A model generated the notes under the pieces. The model was not told where the DNA came from. It ran no database searches and saw only the letters and a program-made list of their open reading frames with translations. Source: Synergistaceae bacterium (GTDB lineage: Bacteria > Synergistota > Synergistia > Synergistales > Aminobacteriaceae). Taken from it: DNA of 48,905 bases. The stretch spans positions 1-48,905 of the forward strand of contig JAFSJJ010000023.1 in NCBI GenBank assembly GCA_017439345.1, read 5' to 3'. The position numbers and the translations under genes were made by a program. Positions 15,596-23,498 of this stretch are shown here, in pieces. Positions within the stretch are counted from its first letter, which is position 1. Each line of letters begins with the position of its first letter.

Positions 15596-15836
15596 GATAT
15601 AACGGCAAAAATTTTTTCTTGAGCTATAATATATACATAAAACTTTTCACATGAGACAAAAATAGATTACTAATACAATTACTAATACAATTAAGCAGAC
15701 TCTCAAGCCCTCATGACTGAATTAACATGATGACTCGATTATAATAAATCATCACGATTAAAGCGTTAAAGCATTCACGTCAATGCACCGACACTAATAC
15801 AAAATTTTATTAAAGCAAGAATGGAGGCTTTCTTTA
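15596..15836. other. Intergenic region between topA and the flagellin leader
   Basis: About 240 bases with no convincing gene. It is AT-rich and holds a perfect tandem 12-mer (15667-15690, listed separately), a further partial copy near 15791 (ACTAATACAAAA), and several TATAAT-like boxes on both strands that I cannot rank. The flagellin transcript presumably starts in or just after this stretch. Confidence 0.5.
15667..15690. repeat. Perfect tandem duplication of a 12-mer
   Basis: TTACTAATACAA occurs twice in direct succession. A second tandem pair with the same 12-nt period lies at 36346-36369, some 20 kb away in another intergenic region. The sequence is not palindromic. It could be a pair of regulator half-sites on about one helical turn, or a remnant of a mobile repeat. 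Confidence 0.85.
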
Positions 15837-15908
15837 ATGCACGTTAGCTATATTCACGAGATTAACTACGTAATTTGCATTAGGTTAGGGGGGGGGCAAG
15901 CTCTTTAG
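15837..15908 (+). CDS. Possible 23-residue leader peptide containing a G9 tract
   Basis: ATG 15837 lies nine bases after GGAGG, a better ribosome site than many genes here. The reading frame MHVSYIHEINY... includes three Gly codons made by the uninterrupted G9 tract (15888-15896) and stops at TAG 15906. If the tract lost one G or gained two, the frame would instead run to a TGA that overlaps the flagellin ATG (15984-15987). With ten Gs it would stop at 15913. No similarity is recognised. The gene call rests only on ribosome site and context, so it is speculative. Confidence 0.3.
   Translation: MHVSYIHEINYVICIRLGGGQAL
15888..15896 (+). repeat. Homopolymeric G9 tract upstream of flagellin
   Basis: Nine consecutive guanines, the longest G run in the window, lie 87 nt before the flagellin start in an otherwise AT-rich leader. 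Tracts of this length are known to be slippage-prone in phase-variable genes of other bacteria. Confidence 0.9.
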
Positions 15909-15983: not shown

Positions 15984-18809
15984 ATGAGAATCGCTAATAA
16001 TCTTCCTGCACTAACTGCTTTCAACGCACTTAACGCCGCTAACAAGAAACTTCAAAAGACAATCACACAATTATCAACAGGACTTAGAATCAATTCTGCT
16101 TCGGACGACGCTGCGGGCTTTGCTGTCAGTGAGAGAATGCGTTCTCAGATTTCCGGGCTTGATACTGCTTTGCGAAATTCACAGGACGGAATATCTTTAT
16201 TGCAGACTGCTGAAGGCGCACTCGGTGAGACAAACTCAATGCTTCAAAGAATGAGAGAGTTAGCTGTCCAGGCAAGTAATGACTCGCTAACATCAAATGA
16301 CAGAAATTATATACAGCTTGAGATTAATGAGTTACAAGACCAGATTAACAGGATCGCAGGGACGACTCAGTTTAACAAGAAACGCATTCTTGACGGAAGC
16401 TCCGGGACTCTGTGGGCATCAAGTGATTTGAATCTCAAGGCGCGAGTTAACGGCGGATTGAGTTATATAGACGAGTTCGGCCAGAAGGTCAGCAGTGAAG
16501 GGAATTACAGAATCGAAGTTAATGCAGAGCCCGGAGAGTGTCAGGTTCAGAAGAGCAATATTATGAACATTGCAGAAGAGAAGACTCAAACTGTAATAAA
16601 GTCAATTCCTATAACAGAAACGCATACTCAAACACTGGAGCGCGAATATGTAATTAACTTAAGCACTATGCTTGACAACAGCGAGACTCCTGCAAGTTCC
16701 GGGAACGGCTGGGAATTTACTACTGATAGTAACGGCAATGACATTCTCAGAATCTACTCTAATGGGAAATTCAATTTAACCGGTACTGCTCCTTCTGGAA
16801 TGTATGTTAATGTCGAAAGAAGCGTAACTAATGCCGCAGTGTTTTTATCAGGAGTTACGATCGATAACAGTGAAAATGAACTTCCTGCGTTCTTGGTTAA
16901 TCCAGGTGCAAATGTCGATATGTATTTGAGCGGTACTAACTCATTAATCAGCGGTGAAAGATATGCAGGTCTTGTTGTCCCGATTGGTGCAGAGCTGACA
17001 ATATCAAGTCAGAATGGTGATTTCTCTGCAAATGGTACTCTTATTGCAAAAGGCGGTTACGGCGGTGCGGGTATCGGCGGAGGAAACGGCTATGATAATG
17101 CCAGAACGGGAACAATTACGATTAACGGCGGAACGATTCAAGCTTCAGGCGGTGCAGAAGCTTCGGGAATTGGGTGCGGGAGCAGCGGGGGCCCTCGTGA
17201 AGGAAGTATAAATATTAACGGCGGTAATATAAATGCATTTGCAGGAGATTATTCAAGTTCAATTACAACAAGCCCCTATGGATATTATTATAATCAGAAT
17301 GCAGGTGCAGGCATTGGCTGTGCAGGTCTTCCCAATCTTAATAATATGCAGATTAACATTACAGGAGGCATTATAGAAGCAAAGGGCGGAACTGTGACAT
17401 TACTATATGATGGCGAGGCACTTGCTAATATCGGTGCTTCAGGTATAGGCGGGAGCATAGATACAGGTTCTGGAATTATAAATATTAACTCTGATGTTTC
17501 TGTTACAGCTGTTCCAGGTGCAGTAAGTTTTTTTGATAATTGGACTTCACATTTTCCCTTACCTGCGATGCGTCCTGAACAATCAATGGAAGCTGAAAAT
17601 ATCGGCTTAGGATGGAAAGGACTTCTAACTCAAAGAAATATCAATCTTGATGCAGGCCTTAGTCCTCCCTTGGCTCGAACAGTTCCAGATAAAGATATAA
17701 TCACAATCACTGAAAACTCTGAAATTATCATTGGCTATGATACTAAAGAAATCACTGAAAAAGTTACCAGTTACAGGACTCTTAACAAAATATCACAGTT
17801 CTATGACTCAAACGGAGTATTTTTACTTTCACAGCCTCAGACCCTCACAATCACTCAGGGCAATGGTCAGACAGCTTCAATCACTCTTTACGAGACCGAC
17901 ACAATGAACGATGTAGCAGCAAAAATTAACAATGCTATAGCAAATTCGCTTGGTCAAGGCTCATACACTGACAACCCTAATAAATTCTGCACGCTCTCAG
18001 ACGGCACACAGAACACTTCAGAGTCAGTTTATTCACGCAATCCAATTTATGACGATAACGGCAATTTAACAGGCTACGAGATTTATTCTACTATGTTAGT
18101 TCGCTCAGTGATACCAGGCAAGGCAGGCGATCTTACTTTCTCGGGCGATGAAGATTTATTAAAGGCTCTGGGACTCAACACGATTCAATCATCAAGCGAA
18201 AGTACATACACAGCTTCAATTTACGATGCCCACTCAGGCCGGGCAGTTACAAGAGCAGTAAAACTCACGGGAAATATTCTCAAAGGCGTAGTAAATCCTA
18301 ATATCGACATAGAATTTGACCCAATGGCAGGGATAAACGCTTCATGGGACGAAAGCACTAAACGTTATATATTATCTGACTCTGAAAATTACTCGGCAGC
18401 TTTGCACTTGAAGGACAACTCTATAACTTTTCAGACAGGAGCAGATAACGGCGAAGATTTTATTATTCAATTAGGAGACACTTCAAGCCTTGCACTCGGA
18501 ATAGAAGGCGTTAATCTCTTGACCCGCGAGAGTGCTTCACGTTCTATAACGATTCTTGATCAGGCAATTAATAAAGTCTCAAGTCAACGCGCCAAAATCG
18601 GAGCATATAACAACGCCCTTGAACACACTATAGAGAACTTGACAACAACAAGCCTCAATCTCGCTGAATCAGAATCAAGAATAAGAGACACTGACATGTC
18701 AAAATCAATTCTCGAACTTGTGAGACTCCAAATTCTGAATCAGTCAGGGACATCAATGCTCGCACAGGCTAACCAGCTGCCTCAAAATATATTAAGCCTC
18801 TTGCAGTGA
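15984..18809 (+). CDS. fliC: Giant flagellin with a long repeat-bearing insert
   Basis: A 941-residue flagellin, two to three times the usual length. Residues 1-150 form the conserved D0/D1 N-terminal part (MRIANNLPALTAFNALNAAN and QRMRELAVQASND at 88-100, the stretch that TLR5 recognises in other flagellins). Residues about 850-941 form the matching C-terminal part ending QLPQNILSLLQ. Between them are about 700 residues. The section about 300-500 is rich in Gly/Asn turns with recurring INGGTIQASGG and GAGIGGG units typical of right-handed beta-helix proteins. ATG 15984 follows CAGGAGG and begins exactly at the family start. The insert would project from the filament surface. Its function (adhesion or glycan binding) is inferred. 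Confidence 0.93.
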   Translation: MRIANNLPALTAFNALNAANKKLQKTITQLSTGLRINSASDDAAGFAVSERMRSQISGLDTALRNSQDGISLLQTAEGALGETNSMLQRMRELAVQASNDSLTSNDRNYIQLEINELQDQINRIAGTTQFNKKRILDGSSGTLWASSDLNLKARVNGGLSYIDEFGQKVSSEGNYRIEVNAEPGECQVQKSNIMNIAEEKTQTVIKSIPITETHTQTLEREYVINLSTMLDNSETPASSGNGWEFTTDSNGNDILRIYSNGKFNLTGTAPSGMYVNVERSVTNAAVFLSGVTIDNSENELPAFLVNPGANVDMYLSGTNSLISGERYAGLVVPIGAELTISSQNGDFSANGTLIAKGGYGGAGIGGGNGYDNARTGTITINGGTIQASGGAEASGIGCGSSGGPREGSININGGNINAFAGDYSSSITTSPYGYYYNQNAGAGIGCAGLPNLNNMQINITGGIIEAKGGTVTLLYDGEALANIGASGIGGSIDTGSGIININSDVSVTAVPGAVSFFDNWTSHFPLPAMRPEQSMEAENIGLGWKGLLTQRNINLDAGLSPPLARTVPDKDIITITENSEIIIGYDTKEITEKVTSYRTLNKISQFYDSNGVFLLSQPQTLTITQGNGQTASITLYETDTMNDVAAKINNAIANSLGQGSYTDNPNKFCTLSDGTQNTSESVYSRNPIYDDNGNLTGYEIYSTMLVRSVIPGKAGDLTFSGDEDLLKALGLNTIQSSSESTYTASIYDAHSGRAVTRAVKLTGNILKGVVNPNIDIEFDPMAGINASWDESTKRYILSDSENYSAALHLKDNSITFQTGADNGEDFIIQLGDTSSLALGIEGVNLLTRESASRSITILDQAINKVSSQRAKIGAYNNALEHTIENLTTTSLNLAESESRIRDTDMSKSILELVRLQILNQSGTSMLAQANQLPQNILSLLQ

Positions 18810-19847: not shown

Positions 19848-22800
19848 GTGCGTTTATTCGGTTCGATCATAAAATTTTTTATATACATGTTCATAATCTT
19901 AATCGCCGCAGGTTCTGCCTTGTTCTGGTTCGATACAGGCTCATGGCTGGTGAAGCCTCTTGCTCAAGGTGCTGCGAGATTCTTTTTATATCCCATGAGA
20001 CTCGAAATCAACGATGTTAAAGGCTCATTGCGTAACGGCTACTCTATTGAGGGCTTGAAATTATTATCAGGCGATGAGAAATATTTCACTCTTGACTTTG
20101 CCAGCGTCTCTCCTGACTGGGAGTCAGTTCTTGACGGAATGCACGGAGTCCCATTCGTGAAAAATGTTATAGTCAAGGGCATTAGATCGGACATGAATAA
20201 GATTATCGAAGTCGCAAATCACGCTTCAAAACTTGCCGGAAGTTCTAATAACGAGTCAAAGACGACCGAAAGCACATCACTTACTCTAAAGCCGTTCAGC
20301 CTGATTATTCAAGACGTGTATATAACGAGTCCTTATGGGAAATTAGCTCTTGATGAATTATCGCTGAATGAGTCAGGAGGATTAATTCTTGACTCGAAAA
20401 TTATCGCGCGTAATAAAGCTCTTCCCGTAAAGGCAAATGCATTACTAGACATTAATAATCTCAAAATAGCAACATCAAGCCTCAACATTGGCAAAGGAAC
20501 AGGAAAACTTGCAGCTTCTCTTGAACCTCTTGACGTAAAATTATTCTTGACTGCATTATCACTCGAAGAATTAATGAACTTGGCACCGATTGAACGCAAA
20601 GACTTTCACGCATCGGGACGAATTGACGGCAAATTTTTTGTCTCGAGCATAAACAACGCAATTCAAGCATCAGGTGTATTATCAATGCCGCGGGCTAACA
20701 TAATGGACATTCCGTTAAGTTTCAGGCTTCCGTTTAAGTGGGACGGTATCGAAACATTTTCACTTGAAGGGGCTTCACTCAAGACTCAGGCAGCTTCACT
20801 CAAGCTCAATGCGTCGGCAAATATTAACGCGCTCAAGATTAAAGCAGACGGTGAGGCAAATAACATTTCACTTTACGAGATAGGCAGGATTTTCGCACCA
20901 GAGGCAAAATTAAAGGGGGAAGGAGGCAATATCAAGTTCGACATTGACACGCTTATAAATGATGATGTCCTTGCTAATACCCGGGCAGATATTAGGGCAA
21001 ACATTCCGTCAATATCGGCAGCAGGAATTAATATCTTGCAGTCCCTTGAAGGTCATGCAAAGCTCTCACGCGGTGAAGCTCCTAAAGTTGCGTTAAACGG
21101 TAAAATTTTCGGCGGTAAAGTGTTCGCACGCGGAGAAGTTGACTCGAACATGAAGCCCAGTGCAGTAATCTCAATCGTGAATCTTGACGTGCCGACTCTA
21201 TTGCGAACGTTCCCGGAGGCTGCGAAGTCAGTTAAGAACGCTTCAGGGAAAATTACGGCTCGAACTGTGATACCATCTAATTTAAATATCAAGACGAATA
21301 TTAAATCAGACAAGTTAAGCGCATTCGGTGTGAGTATAACTAATTTGCTTGCTGATGTTATATACAACTTCAATCACTCTAAGGCAGAACTTGAGCATTT
21401 ATCGCTTAATCTCGGCAAAGGCTTAATCAAGGCTTCAGGCAGTGTGAATCTCAAGAGCAATGAATTCGACTTCAATGCAAATACAGAAAATTTTGACCCT
21501 CATTTTATAAGCGAACTTAAAGACTTAACCGGAGCATTTAATATCAAAGCAAGTGCTTCAGGAAAATTCACGGATATAAAGACTATCAACGCTAATGCAG
21601 AGGTCAAAGCAACTAATGCAGGCTACGGAGGGATAAGGCTCGGCAATCTTGATTTACCTGTAAAGTTCGCAAATAATATATTAACTATTCCAAATGCTCG
21701 AGGCTCGCTCCCCGGGGGCAATTTGACTTTCGGAGGCACTGTTAATCTTCACAACGCAGCTAATCCTGCACTTGACATTAACGCTTCAACGAAGGGAGTC
21801 AACATTGCAGAGGTCTTGAAAACTTTCAGCCTTCAAGATAAATCAATGCCCATAACAGGAAGAGTAAGAGGCAGCCTGAACGTCAAGGGAGCTTTGAACA
21901 CTGCAACGGTGAACGCAAATTTATATGTCGATAACTTCAAAGCAGGTAAAGCAATTAACATGCCCAGTGCAGCACTCGAAGCAAGCGGAAATATGAATCG
22001 TGTAACAGTCCGAAAACTTCAAGCTAAGATTAACAACGCAGATATAAACGGTAATGGATCGATGTCGATTAATCCCAAAAATTTTATGAGGAGTACTCTT
22101 AATATTAATGCGAATGTGAGAAGACTTGAATTAAAGACTTTATTAGCCCAGTTCATGGAAAAGCCTCCTGTTACAGGTGAACTCAGGGGAAATATAAGCG
22201 TCAAGGGGACACTTGCACAGCCTCAAGCAGAGATAAAATTATCAGAGCCGTTATATTATGGCATTATCAAAATCGAGAATATAGCACTCAAGCTCAAGGC
22301 ACCTGAAGAGAATCACTATGTAATCAACGCAAAGCTGCGGGCCAAGAACTTCACTCCCGAACTTGATATAGATTTAAAGCAGTCAGGCAGTAATTATCTT
22401 TATGACATCAGGACTAACCCTCTTGATATAAATAAAGCTATCGAAGTTCAGACAGCTTCAATGCAGGGTATCTTAAAGGGAGCCGCTACAGTCCGGGTAA
22501 ATGGATCCGTCAGCACTAAATTTGATAAGTTCTCGCCTGTTAATATAAATGTCAGGTCGCCGTTAATAAAAGTCATTGATAAAATCAGCATAAATAAAAT
22601 CAATCTGCCTCTTGTCTATAATATCTCGTCAGGAAAATTAAGCATGAAGAACGGCAAAGCAGTAATCAGCAACGGAGATATTAACTCACACTTTGAACTC
22701 GACACGAAAAAGAATTCATGGAACGGTCAGCTTAACGCAGCTCATCTTGATTTCGGGAAGCTCGCACAGCCTTTTTTACCAGAAGGCGAATTAATAGGAC

Positions 22801-23498
22801 AGGTTGACGCAGATGTTACGGCAAAAGGGACACTTGGGACTATGCCTACAAGTTTTGCTAACGGGAAATTTGCAACGACACCGGGCTATATTCACAAGAT
22901 GGCAGTAATTAACAGGGTATCGCCTACGAAAAAAATAACGTTCGAGAAGATTTCAGGTTCATTTTTCTGGAACGGCAGAGATTTATTCTTGAATCCAGGC
23001 ACAGGAGCGCGCGCTGACAACAAAGAGCCTCTATACCGCTACGTATCGATTAACGGAGCTATGGGAATACCGGGCAAAGGCTTAAGACTTAACTTTGACG
23101 GACGCTTTGACTTGAAGATTCTCGATAGATTCTTAGGCGCAATGAAAGGAGTCTTTCAATACATGACAGGAGGACTCACGGGGTCAACTGGTTTCTTACG
23201 CGATGCAGCAGGACGAATGCTCGGGGTCAAGCGCAGAGATTATCAGAACGTTTCATTCACCCTTGCTAACTCGTGGAGTAATCTGCAATTCCTGGATCTC
23301 AAAGTTTCTAAGCCTATTGAAGACTTCCTGCCGATTAACCTGCTCAACAAGAATCCGGAAGCCCAGCGTTCAGAACAGAAATTCAAGTTACAGCTCAAGT
23401 TCCCTGTAGGTCCCGGAAATCATGACCCTGAAGATGACTCACCGGCTGACCAGTTCAAGCAGCAATTAATAGACAATTTATTTGACATGGGATTATAA
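19848..23498 (+). CDS. TamB/AsmA-like envelope protein
   Basis: A 1216-residue protein anchored by one N-terminal helix (about residues 7-27), followed by a very long beta-rich region made of repeated segments. It ends with a TamB/DUF490-type C-terminal domain (about 970-1216, including GQVDADVTAKGTLGTMP and LNFDGRFDLKILDRF). TamB and its AsmA-like relatives span the periplasm as hydrophobic grooves and are linked to phospholipid transport to, or protein insertion in, the outer membrane. Its presence indicates a diderm cell. The start is GTG 19848 after GGGAAGGAA, with TATAAT at 19808-19813. No tamA/bamA gene is next to it. It is a single-gene transcript closed by the hairpin at 23515. Confidence 0.85.
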   Translation: MRLFGSIIKFFIYMFIILIAAGSALFWFDTGSWLVKPLAQGAARFFLYPMRLEINDVKGSLRNGYSIEGLKLLSGDEKYFTLDFASVSPDWESVLDGMHGVPFVKNVIVKGIRSDMNKIIEVANHASKLAGSSNNESKTTESTSLTLKPFSLIIQDVYITSPYGKLALDELSLNESGGLILDSKIIARNKALPVKANALLDINNLKIATSSLNIGKGTGKLAASLEPLDVKLFLTALSLEELMNLAPIERKDFHASGRIDGKFFVSSINNAIQASGVLSMPRANIMDIPLSFRLPFKWDGIETFSLEGASLKTQAASLKLNASANINALKIKADGEANNISLYEIGRIFAPEAKLKGEGGNIKFDIDTLINDDVLANTRADIRANIPSISAAGINILQSLEGHAKLSRGEAPKVALNGKIFGGKVFARGEVDSNMKPSAVISIVNLDVPTLLRTFPEAAKSVKNASGKITARTVIPSNLNIKTNIKSDKLSAFGVSITNLLADVIYNFNHSKAELEHLSLNLGKGLIKASGSVNLKSNEFDFNANTENFDPHFISELKDLTGAFNIKASASGKFTDIKTINANAEVKATNAGYGGIRLGNLDLPVKFANNILTIPNARGSLPGGNLTFGGTVNLHNAANPALDINASTKGVNIAEVLKTFSLQDKSMPITGRVRGSLNVKGALNTATVNANLYVDNFKAGKAINMPSAALEASGNMNRVTVRKLQAKINNADINGNGSMSINPKNFMRSTLNINANVRRLELKTLLAQFMEKPPVTGELRGNISVKGTLAQPQAEIKLSEPLYYGIIKIENIALKLKAPEENHYVINAKLRAKNFTPELDIDLKQSGSNYLYDIRTNPLDINKAIEVQTASMQGILKGAATVRVNGSVSTKFDKFSPVNINVRSPLIKVIDKISINKINLPLVYNISSGKLSMKNGKAVISNGDINSHFELDTKKNSWNGQLNAAHLDFGKLAQPFLPEGELIGQVDADVTAKGTLGTMPTSFANGKFATTPGYIHKMAVINRVSPTKKITFEKISGSFFWNGRDLFLNPGTGARADNKEPLYRYVSINGAMGIPGKGLRLNFDGRFDLKILDRFLGAMKGVFQYMTGGLTGSTGFLRDAAGRMLGVKRRDYQNVSFTLANSWSNLQFLDLKVSKPIEDFLPINLLNKNPEAQRSEQKFKLQLKFPVGPGNHDPEDDSPADQFKQQLIDNLFDMGL

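Follow-up and report, generated by a model that had tools for sequence, protein, structure and literature searches.

A Synergistaceae flagellin with a predicted stalked β-helix head at a junction shared by its paralogues

The flagellin gene F16 and its domain layout

The window analysed here, a stretch of 48.9 kb, is contig C16 of a 2.54-Mb Synergistaceae assembly (98% complete) and carries housekeeping genes along with a flagellin gene, denoted F16. The gene and its domain layout are established computationally, while the fold of the middle region and its stalk are predicted. The features are as follows.

15767..15794, + strand: sigma-28-type promoter-like site TAAAGCAT-N12-ACCGACAC, 217 nt upstream of the flagellin ATG, score 20/25
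15837..15908, + strand: putative leader mini-ORF MHVSYIHEINYVICIRLGGGQAL with a GGAGG ribosome site in front; the layout recurs upstream of several related flagellins
15888..15896, + strand: G9 tract, in frame inside the leader mini-ORF; the window has no other G/C run of at least 7
15984..18809, + strand: flagellin gene F16, intact ORF of 941 codons (941 aa)
15984..16403, + strand: N-terminal D0/D1 core, residues 1-140 (Flagellin_N at residues 3-139, E 1e-43)
16404..16562, + strand: N-side part of the outer domain, with the junction QVQKSNIM (residues 187-194) at its end, conserved in all paralogues
16563..16646, + strand: predicted stalk strand 1, residues 194-221, a single continuous strand in the AlphaFold models
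16653..17687, + strand: predicted β-helix head, residues 224-568, Cthe_2159-like (pLDDT mostly 85-98; structural and profile matches)
17697..17774, + strand: predicted stalk strand 2, residues 572-597 (AlphaFold models)
17796..18542, + strand: C-side part of the outer domain (D2b), residues 605-853 (match to 9au6, E 4e-22)
18546..18803, + strand: C-terminal D1/D0 core, residues 855-940 (Flagellin_C, E 2e-23)

Both terminal domains score above their cut-offs (Flagellin_N 149.1 bits, cut-off 26.6; Flagellin_C 83.1 bits, cut-off 23), in agreement with an initial annotation that had described a 941-residue flagellin with two intact conserved ends. The TLR5-type stretch listed there as retained is present as well (QRMRELAVQ at residue 88), a feature general to flagellins. 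The β-helix insert of about 700 residues proposed between these ends has to be divided: a β-helix is indeed present, but only about 400 residues are cargo, and about 300 (residues ~141-194 and 605-853) form an ordinary outer domain common to the paralogues and to the flagellum of Geovibrio thiophilus (9au6). This outer domain is split into two halves in F16, with the cargo between them. Among solved structures, 9au6 is the best sequence match for F16, covering residues 2-201 and a stretch within the supposed insert that ends at residue 852, and it is also the best whole-protein match in a fold search. D2b is 44-68% identical to its counterparts in paralogues and relatives, and the core, the junction (with small variations) and D2b are common to all paralogues. 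The cargo of F16 (residues ~195-600) hence sits at a fixed junction. No DNA tandem repeats were found, which indicates that the protein repeats are old. Elsewhere in the window, a 1216-aa ORF without Pfam match (19848-23498, + strand) has a sequence resembling that of a TamB/AsmA-type translocation protein.

For the cargo alone, AlphaFold returns a confident model (pLDDT 90.4, pTM 0.86) of a right-handed β-helix flanked by two strands of 25-28 residues each. The same order, strand, β-helix, strand, is seen in the whole-protein model (pLDDT 78; input of 11 sequences from the window and related loci), where head and core are positioned relative to each other with low confidence (pTM 0.45). The possibility that the middle is merely disordered is excluded by the cargo model. 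The Pfam β-helix repeat PF18889 falls just above its curated cut-off when the cargo is searched alone (E 3e-6) and just below it in the whole protein. As read from the model, the two long strands pair with each other and would form a stalk of about 9 nm (26 residues at 3.3 Å per residue). Over 23 relatives, in some of which the arms are short, the lengths of the two arms co-vary (Spearman 0.54, p 0.008, after hand correction of one row, G053, without which significance was not reached), which is moderate evidence for a stalk.

The predicted head and its likeness to Cthe_2159

In Foldseek searches with the cargo model, the first-ranked structure is Cthe_2159 of Clostridium thermocellum (PDB 4peu, 4phb), with E-values of 5e-3 and 2.8e-2 and a probability of 1.00, whereas all others reach at most 0.1. 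Pairwise alignment by VIA-align gives Z 24.0 and an rmsd of 3.0 Å, with 226 of 248 residues aligned at 25% identity; the next-best fold reaches Z 12.8. An independent sequence profile of the cargo also leads to 4peu (E 3e-5), the only solved protein below E 1e-3. The modelled head matches 4peu/4phb in fold and in sequence profile and is thus a Cthe_2159-like β-helix, which bears out the earlier suggestion of a right-handed β-helix of polysaccharide-binding or lyase-like type in the exposed middle. PF14262, the Pfam model of the Cthe_2159 family, does not match F16 and matches one of 11 relatives (E 0.016); the head is therefore named Cthe_2159-like and not assigned to this Pfam family. A viral origin of the β-helix was also considered, and the best BFVD match (E 0.08) was not convincing.

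Cthe_2159 domains are β-helix proteins for which binding of cellulose and polygalacturonic acid has been reported (PMC6712302). The ligand is not deducible from the β-helix alone, since the matches span lyases, epimerases and tailspikes, all of which use this fold. A displayed pectate-lyase-like enzyme, as the initial annotation had allowed, would fit the similar folds of several polysaccharide lyases and polygalacturonases (VIA-align Z 10-12) and the designation of Cthe_2159 as lyase-like in the titles of its structure entries. The conservation pattern speaks against it. Across 22 related β-helix cargos, 100 columns are conserved at 70% or more, mainly Gly, Ile, Ala, Asn and similar residues; only two are charged, both acidic, and no K, R or H column is among them. 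One of the acidic columns is D231, and at the other F16 itself carries a valine (V331). The combination typical of pectate lyases, a conserved basic catalytic residue with acidic calcium ligands, is absent from these 22 cargos, as is any conserved acidic/basic cluster, and an enzymatic filament is accordingly very improbable. The lack of conserved catalytic-type residues makes a binding head likelier than an enzyme, and the most likely role of the F16 head is to bind polysaccharides, be they plant cell-wall polymers (pectin, cellulose) or other gut glycans.

Paralogues, relatives and the exchange of heads

A Flagellin_N search of the same genome gave 14 matches. When combined with the C-terminal search and inspection of reading frames, these resolve into seven other intact flagellins, two broken ones (on contig C8 and, with a frameshift and a stop, on C32), FlgL and minor matches, so that F16 is accompanied by at least nine flagellin genes, two of them broken, a count which may include strain mixing because the assembly is fragmented. 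The paralogues differ in what they carry: no cargo on C24; a domain without Pfam match, here labelled D3-like, on C4 (twice) and C35; a β-helix on C36, as on C16; a β-helix with a D3-like domain on C6; and a von Willebrand A (VWA) domain on C41 (Pfam VWA E 1e-10, above cut-off). Two of them, F4a (C4) and F35 (C35), belong to conserved orthologue groups and are the apparent genes of the main filament. The best sigma-28 site, near-perfect at 24/25, is that of F35; the site of F16 is weaker. The initial annotation had envisaged a filament with thousands of copies of the cargo. From the number of other flagellins, the two conserved groups and the promoter of F35, it is concluded that F16 is probably an accessory, perhaps phase-variable, flagellin subunit.

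Several related loci deserve mention in their own right. L013 (3876-6200, - strand) encodes a flagellin in which a von Willebrand A domain with a DxSxS motif replaces the β-helix. L014 (3237-6918, + strand) holds a β-helix flagellin broken by a frameshift and a stop codon. L017 (2017-3745, - strand) is a broken copy of F16 whose flanks, including a leader with a G10 tract, show 83% DNA identity, and whose cargo gives no blastn alignment to that of F16. L016 (3145-6783, + strand) encodes an FlgL-type protein of 1213 aa, far above the usual size. A 7.4-kb stretch carrying both F4a and F4b (L009 against L176) has 99.99% identity to a contig from the assembly of another species, which might reflect recent transfer or shared binning.

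Named relatives with the F16 type of flagellin are Synergistaceae assemblies, several labelled Fretibacterium, and come mostly from ruminant digestive tracts (goat, deer, sheep, reindeer); judging from these sources, the host organism of F16 presumably lives in the rumen. Scanning the genome contigs with the cargo found no relative, and the D2b alignment as query did recover them. The cargo profile matches 35 of 43 genomes of the genus, in many cases inside flagellin genes, as well as 45 of the 81 family genomes, with part of the matches in non-flagellin proteins; such a comparison of inserts among relatives, as proposed with the initial annotation, shows the cargo to be more than a chance occurrence. 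Relatives with VWA cargo occur in 16 of the 43 genomes. Pfam assigned β-helix repeats to 27 and VWA to four of 57 sampled cargos. Classification with our own profiles gave 30 D3-like, 26 β-helix and 13 without cargo, besides four with β-helix plus D3-like, two VWA, two with VWA nested in a D3-like domain and five others.

A tree of the flagellin core (76 rows, cargo left out) requires 15 changes of cargo class, compared to a mean of 40.8 after shuffling; cargo is clustered, yet not tied to lineage. On starred branches, at least eight changes are forced for the β-helix label. The clade of F16 (16 rows, 98%) contains nine β-helix cargos, three β-helix plus D3-like, two VWA and two D3-like plus VWA, and the row closest to F16 by N-terminal core (85%) bears a VWA-containing, non-β-helix cargo. 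The orthologue groups of F4a, F4b and F35 each keep a single cargo throughout. Display domains have been repeatedly exchanged at one junction on this tree. The cargo also evolves faster than the core: between F16 and its nearest orthologue, dN is 0.38 in the cargo and 0.14-0.26 in the other regions, at saturated dS. Two further arrangements were seen among other loci, namely two flagellin ORFs, 1958 and 1963 aa long, with middles of 1400 residues in other families of the order (L096 499-6372; L097 266-6154) and, in one relative, four flagellin genes in tandem, each of about 800 aa (L043 2-9788).

Middle regions of flagellins are classic antigens. The higher non-synonymous change in the cargo than in the core, and its swapping among paralogues with switching possible, would also be expected of a hypervariable head that binds no specific ligand and serves to evade flagellotropic phages, protozoa or host antibodies. 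Such diversification is possible, though rather doubtful, given that the heads retain one specific fold instead of arbitrary sequence and that exchange brings in folds of ligand-binding type (β-helix, VWA), not mere loops. A second alternative regards the extra domain as a mechanical layer that thickens or stiffens the filament for viscous, fibre-rich fluid. In its favour, giant flagellins form thick filaments (PMC6248924), and the top whole-protein match of F16 is the G. thiophilus filament; the length of the stalk and the type of cargo differ greatly, however, even within one genome, which would be hard to pack in a regular sheath, and the conserved paralogues carry another, D3-like outer domain suited to that role. 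This explanation appears unlikely. Still less probable is a silent or decaying F16 gene whose product stays out of the filaments. The genome contains two broken relatives, other flagellins show more conservation and the promoter site of F35 is better, but the ORF of F16 is intact across 941 codons, dN to the nearest orthologue lies far below the saturated dS, and the promoter-like site, the ribosome site and both core ends are in place.

A poly-G leader, known systems and the proposed role

FliA is encoded in the genome. The score of the sigma-28-type site of F16 was reached by nine of 400 dinucleotide shuffles, and the site is also kept in the broken paralogue on C8. With eight G in its tract, the leader mini-ORF would extend to a TGA that overlaps the ATG of the flagellin; nine or ten G bring an early stop. 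Four of five poly-G leaders permit this overlap at one tract length, a result equalled by 122 of 5000 shuffles, the leaders of F16 and C8 being close copies, so that the overlap is suggestive only. Poly-G tracts lie upstream of four of the 16 genes of the F16 clade and of none of 60 others (Fisher 0.0014, for related genes and a clade picked post hoc). Among the first 100 of 140 listed windows from across the genome, at least 35 distinct runs of nine or more G were counted against 3.6 expected at window composition; such tracts (e.g. 15888-15896 in the window and loci L191-L210) are about tenfold over chance genome-wide, and several are located inside ORFs. From its sequence, the genome looks like a contingency-locus genome, and the tract in the leader mini-ORF suggests phase-variable expression of F16. 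Some poly-G tracts are preceded by TACGTAAT (six places, none in the reversed control). A sigma-70 promoter across the tract was looked for by eye, and no convincing -35/-10 pair was seen. Long G tracts are shared with the poly-G contingency loci of Campylobacter type (catalogue in PMC6321876); there, the tract is in the main reading frame, and in F16 it is in a leader mini-ORF before the flagellin.

As anticipated in the initial annotation, F16 is analogous to cargo-bearing flagellins such as flagellinolysin, which have a functional domain in the flagellin middle and display it on the filament surface (PMC5595980). The cargo of flagellinolysin is a metallopeptidase and that of F16 a β-helix: the model NF033876 of flagellinolysin, with its HExxH metallopeptidase in the middle region, reaches only 68.9 bits on F16, far under the cut-off of 205 (best stretch residues 777-872), and Pfam finds no peptidase domain. 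Among 26,587 flagellins, the survey reports vWFA in 21 and metallopeptidases in 86, and its top-ten domain list, out of 61 domains in all, includes vWFA and no β-helix (PMC5595980). Giant flagellins, e.g. of Bermanella marisrubri and the G. thiophilus filament 9au6, resemble F16 in their oversized outer region, 9au6 also in core and outer domain sequence. Synergistetes are among the phyla listed with giant flagellins, and the accessible part of that source describes neither a stalked β-helix cargo nor a cargo-exchanging paralogue set (PMC6248924). Cthe_2159 shares the right-handed β-helix and differs in standing outside any flagellin. The sequence and structure matches of F16 further include the cell-surface flagellin homologue of Sphingomonas (3k8v, 2zbi). 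This cell-surface protein is reported to bind the polysaccharide alginate and is not known to have a β-helix cargo. A partial literature search, which covered the top-ten list of the survey (PMC5595980), found no β-helix cargo and no exchange set within one genome. Cargo-bearing flagellins are thus known already; new here is a β-helix cargo in a swappable paralogue set.

The explanation preferred here, at a probability of about one half, is that F16 is an accessory flagellin displaying a stalked polysaccharide-binding β-helix head, drawn from an exchangeable paralogue set and perhaps switched by poly-G. Concerning co-assembly, ligand, expression switching and benefit, we infer the following. 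F16 would co-assemble into the flagellar filament via its intact D0/D1 core, and the two-stranded β stalk, of the length given above, would hold the head outside the usual outer domain. The head would bind polysaccharide, either plant cell-wall polymers (pectin, cellulose) or other gut glycans, so that a filament containing F16 may act as a long multivalent adhesin, and the poly-G tract in the leader ORF may switch its expression. A wider version is advanced only tentatively: a genus-wide, switchable flagellar display might consist of a scaffold with a fixed junction, exchangeable heads (Cthe_2159-like β-helix, VWA, D3-like or none) and poly-G leaders that toggle the heads by translational coupling, with filaments of different binding specificity within one population.

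If this holds true, cargo flagellins would extend from single insertions to a modular family in one genome, and an uncultured gut lineage would possess a plausible plant-polymer-binding head. It becomes testable how flagella can work as adhesins with many binding sites for fibre, and whether a bacterium mixes its filament heads or switches between them. The junction would be a natural fixed site for showing folded domains on flagella, and a filament used for swimming may at the same time be a sticky surface that can be switched.
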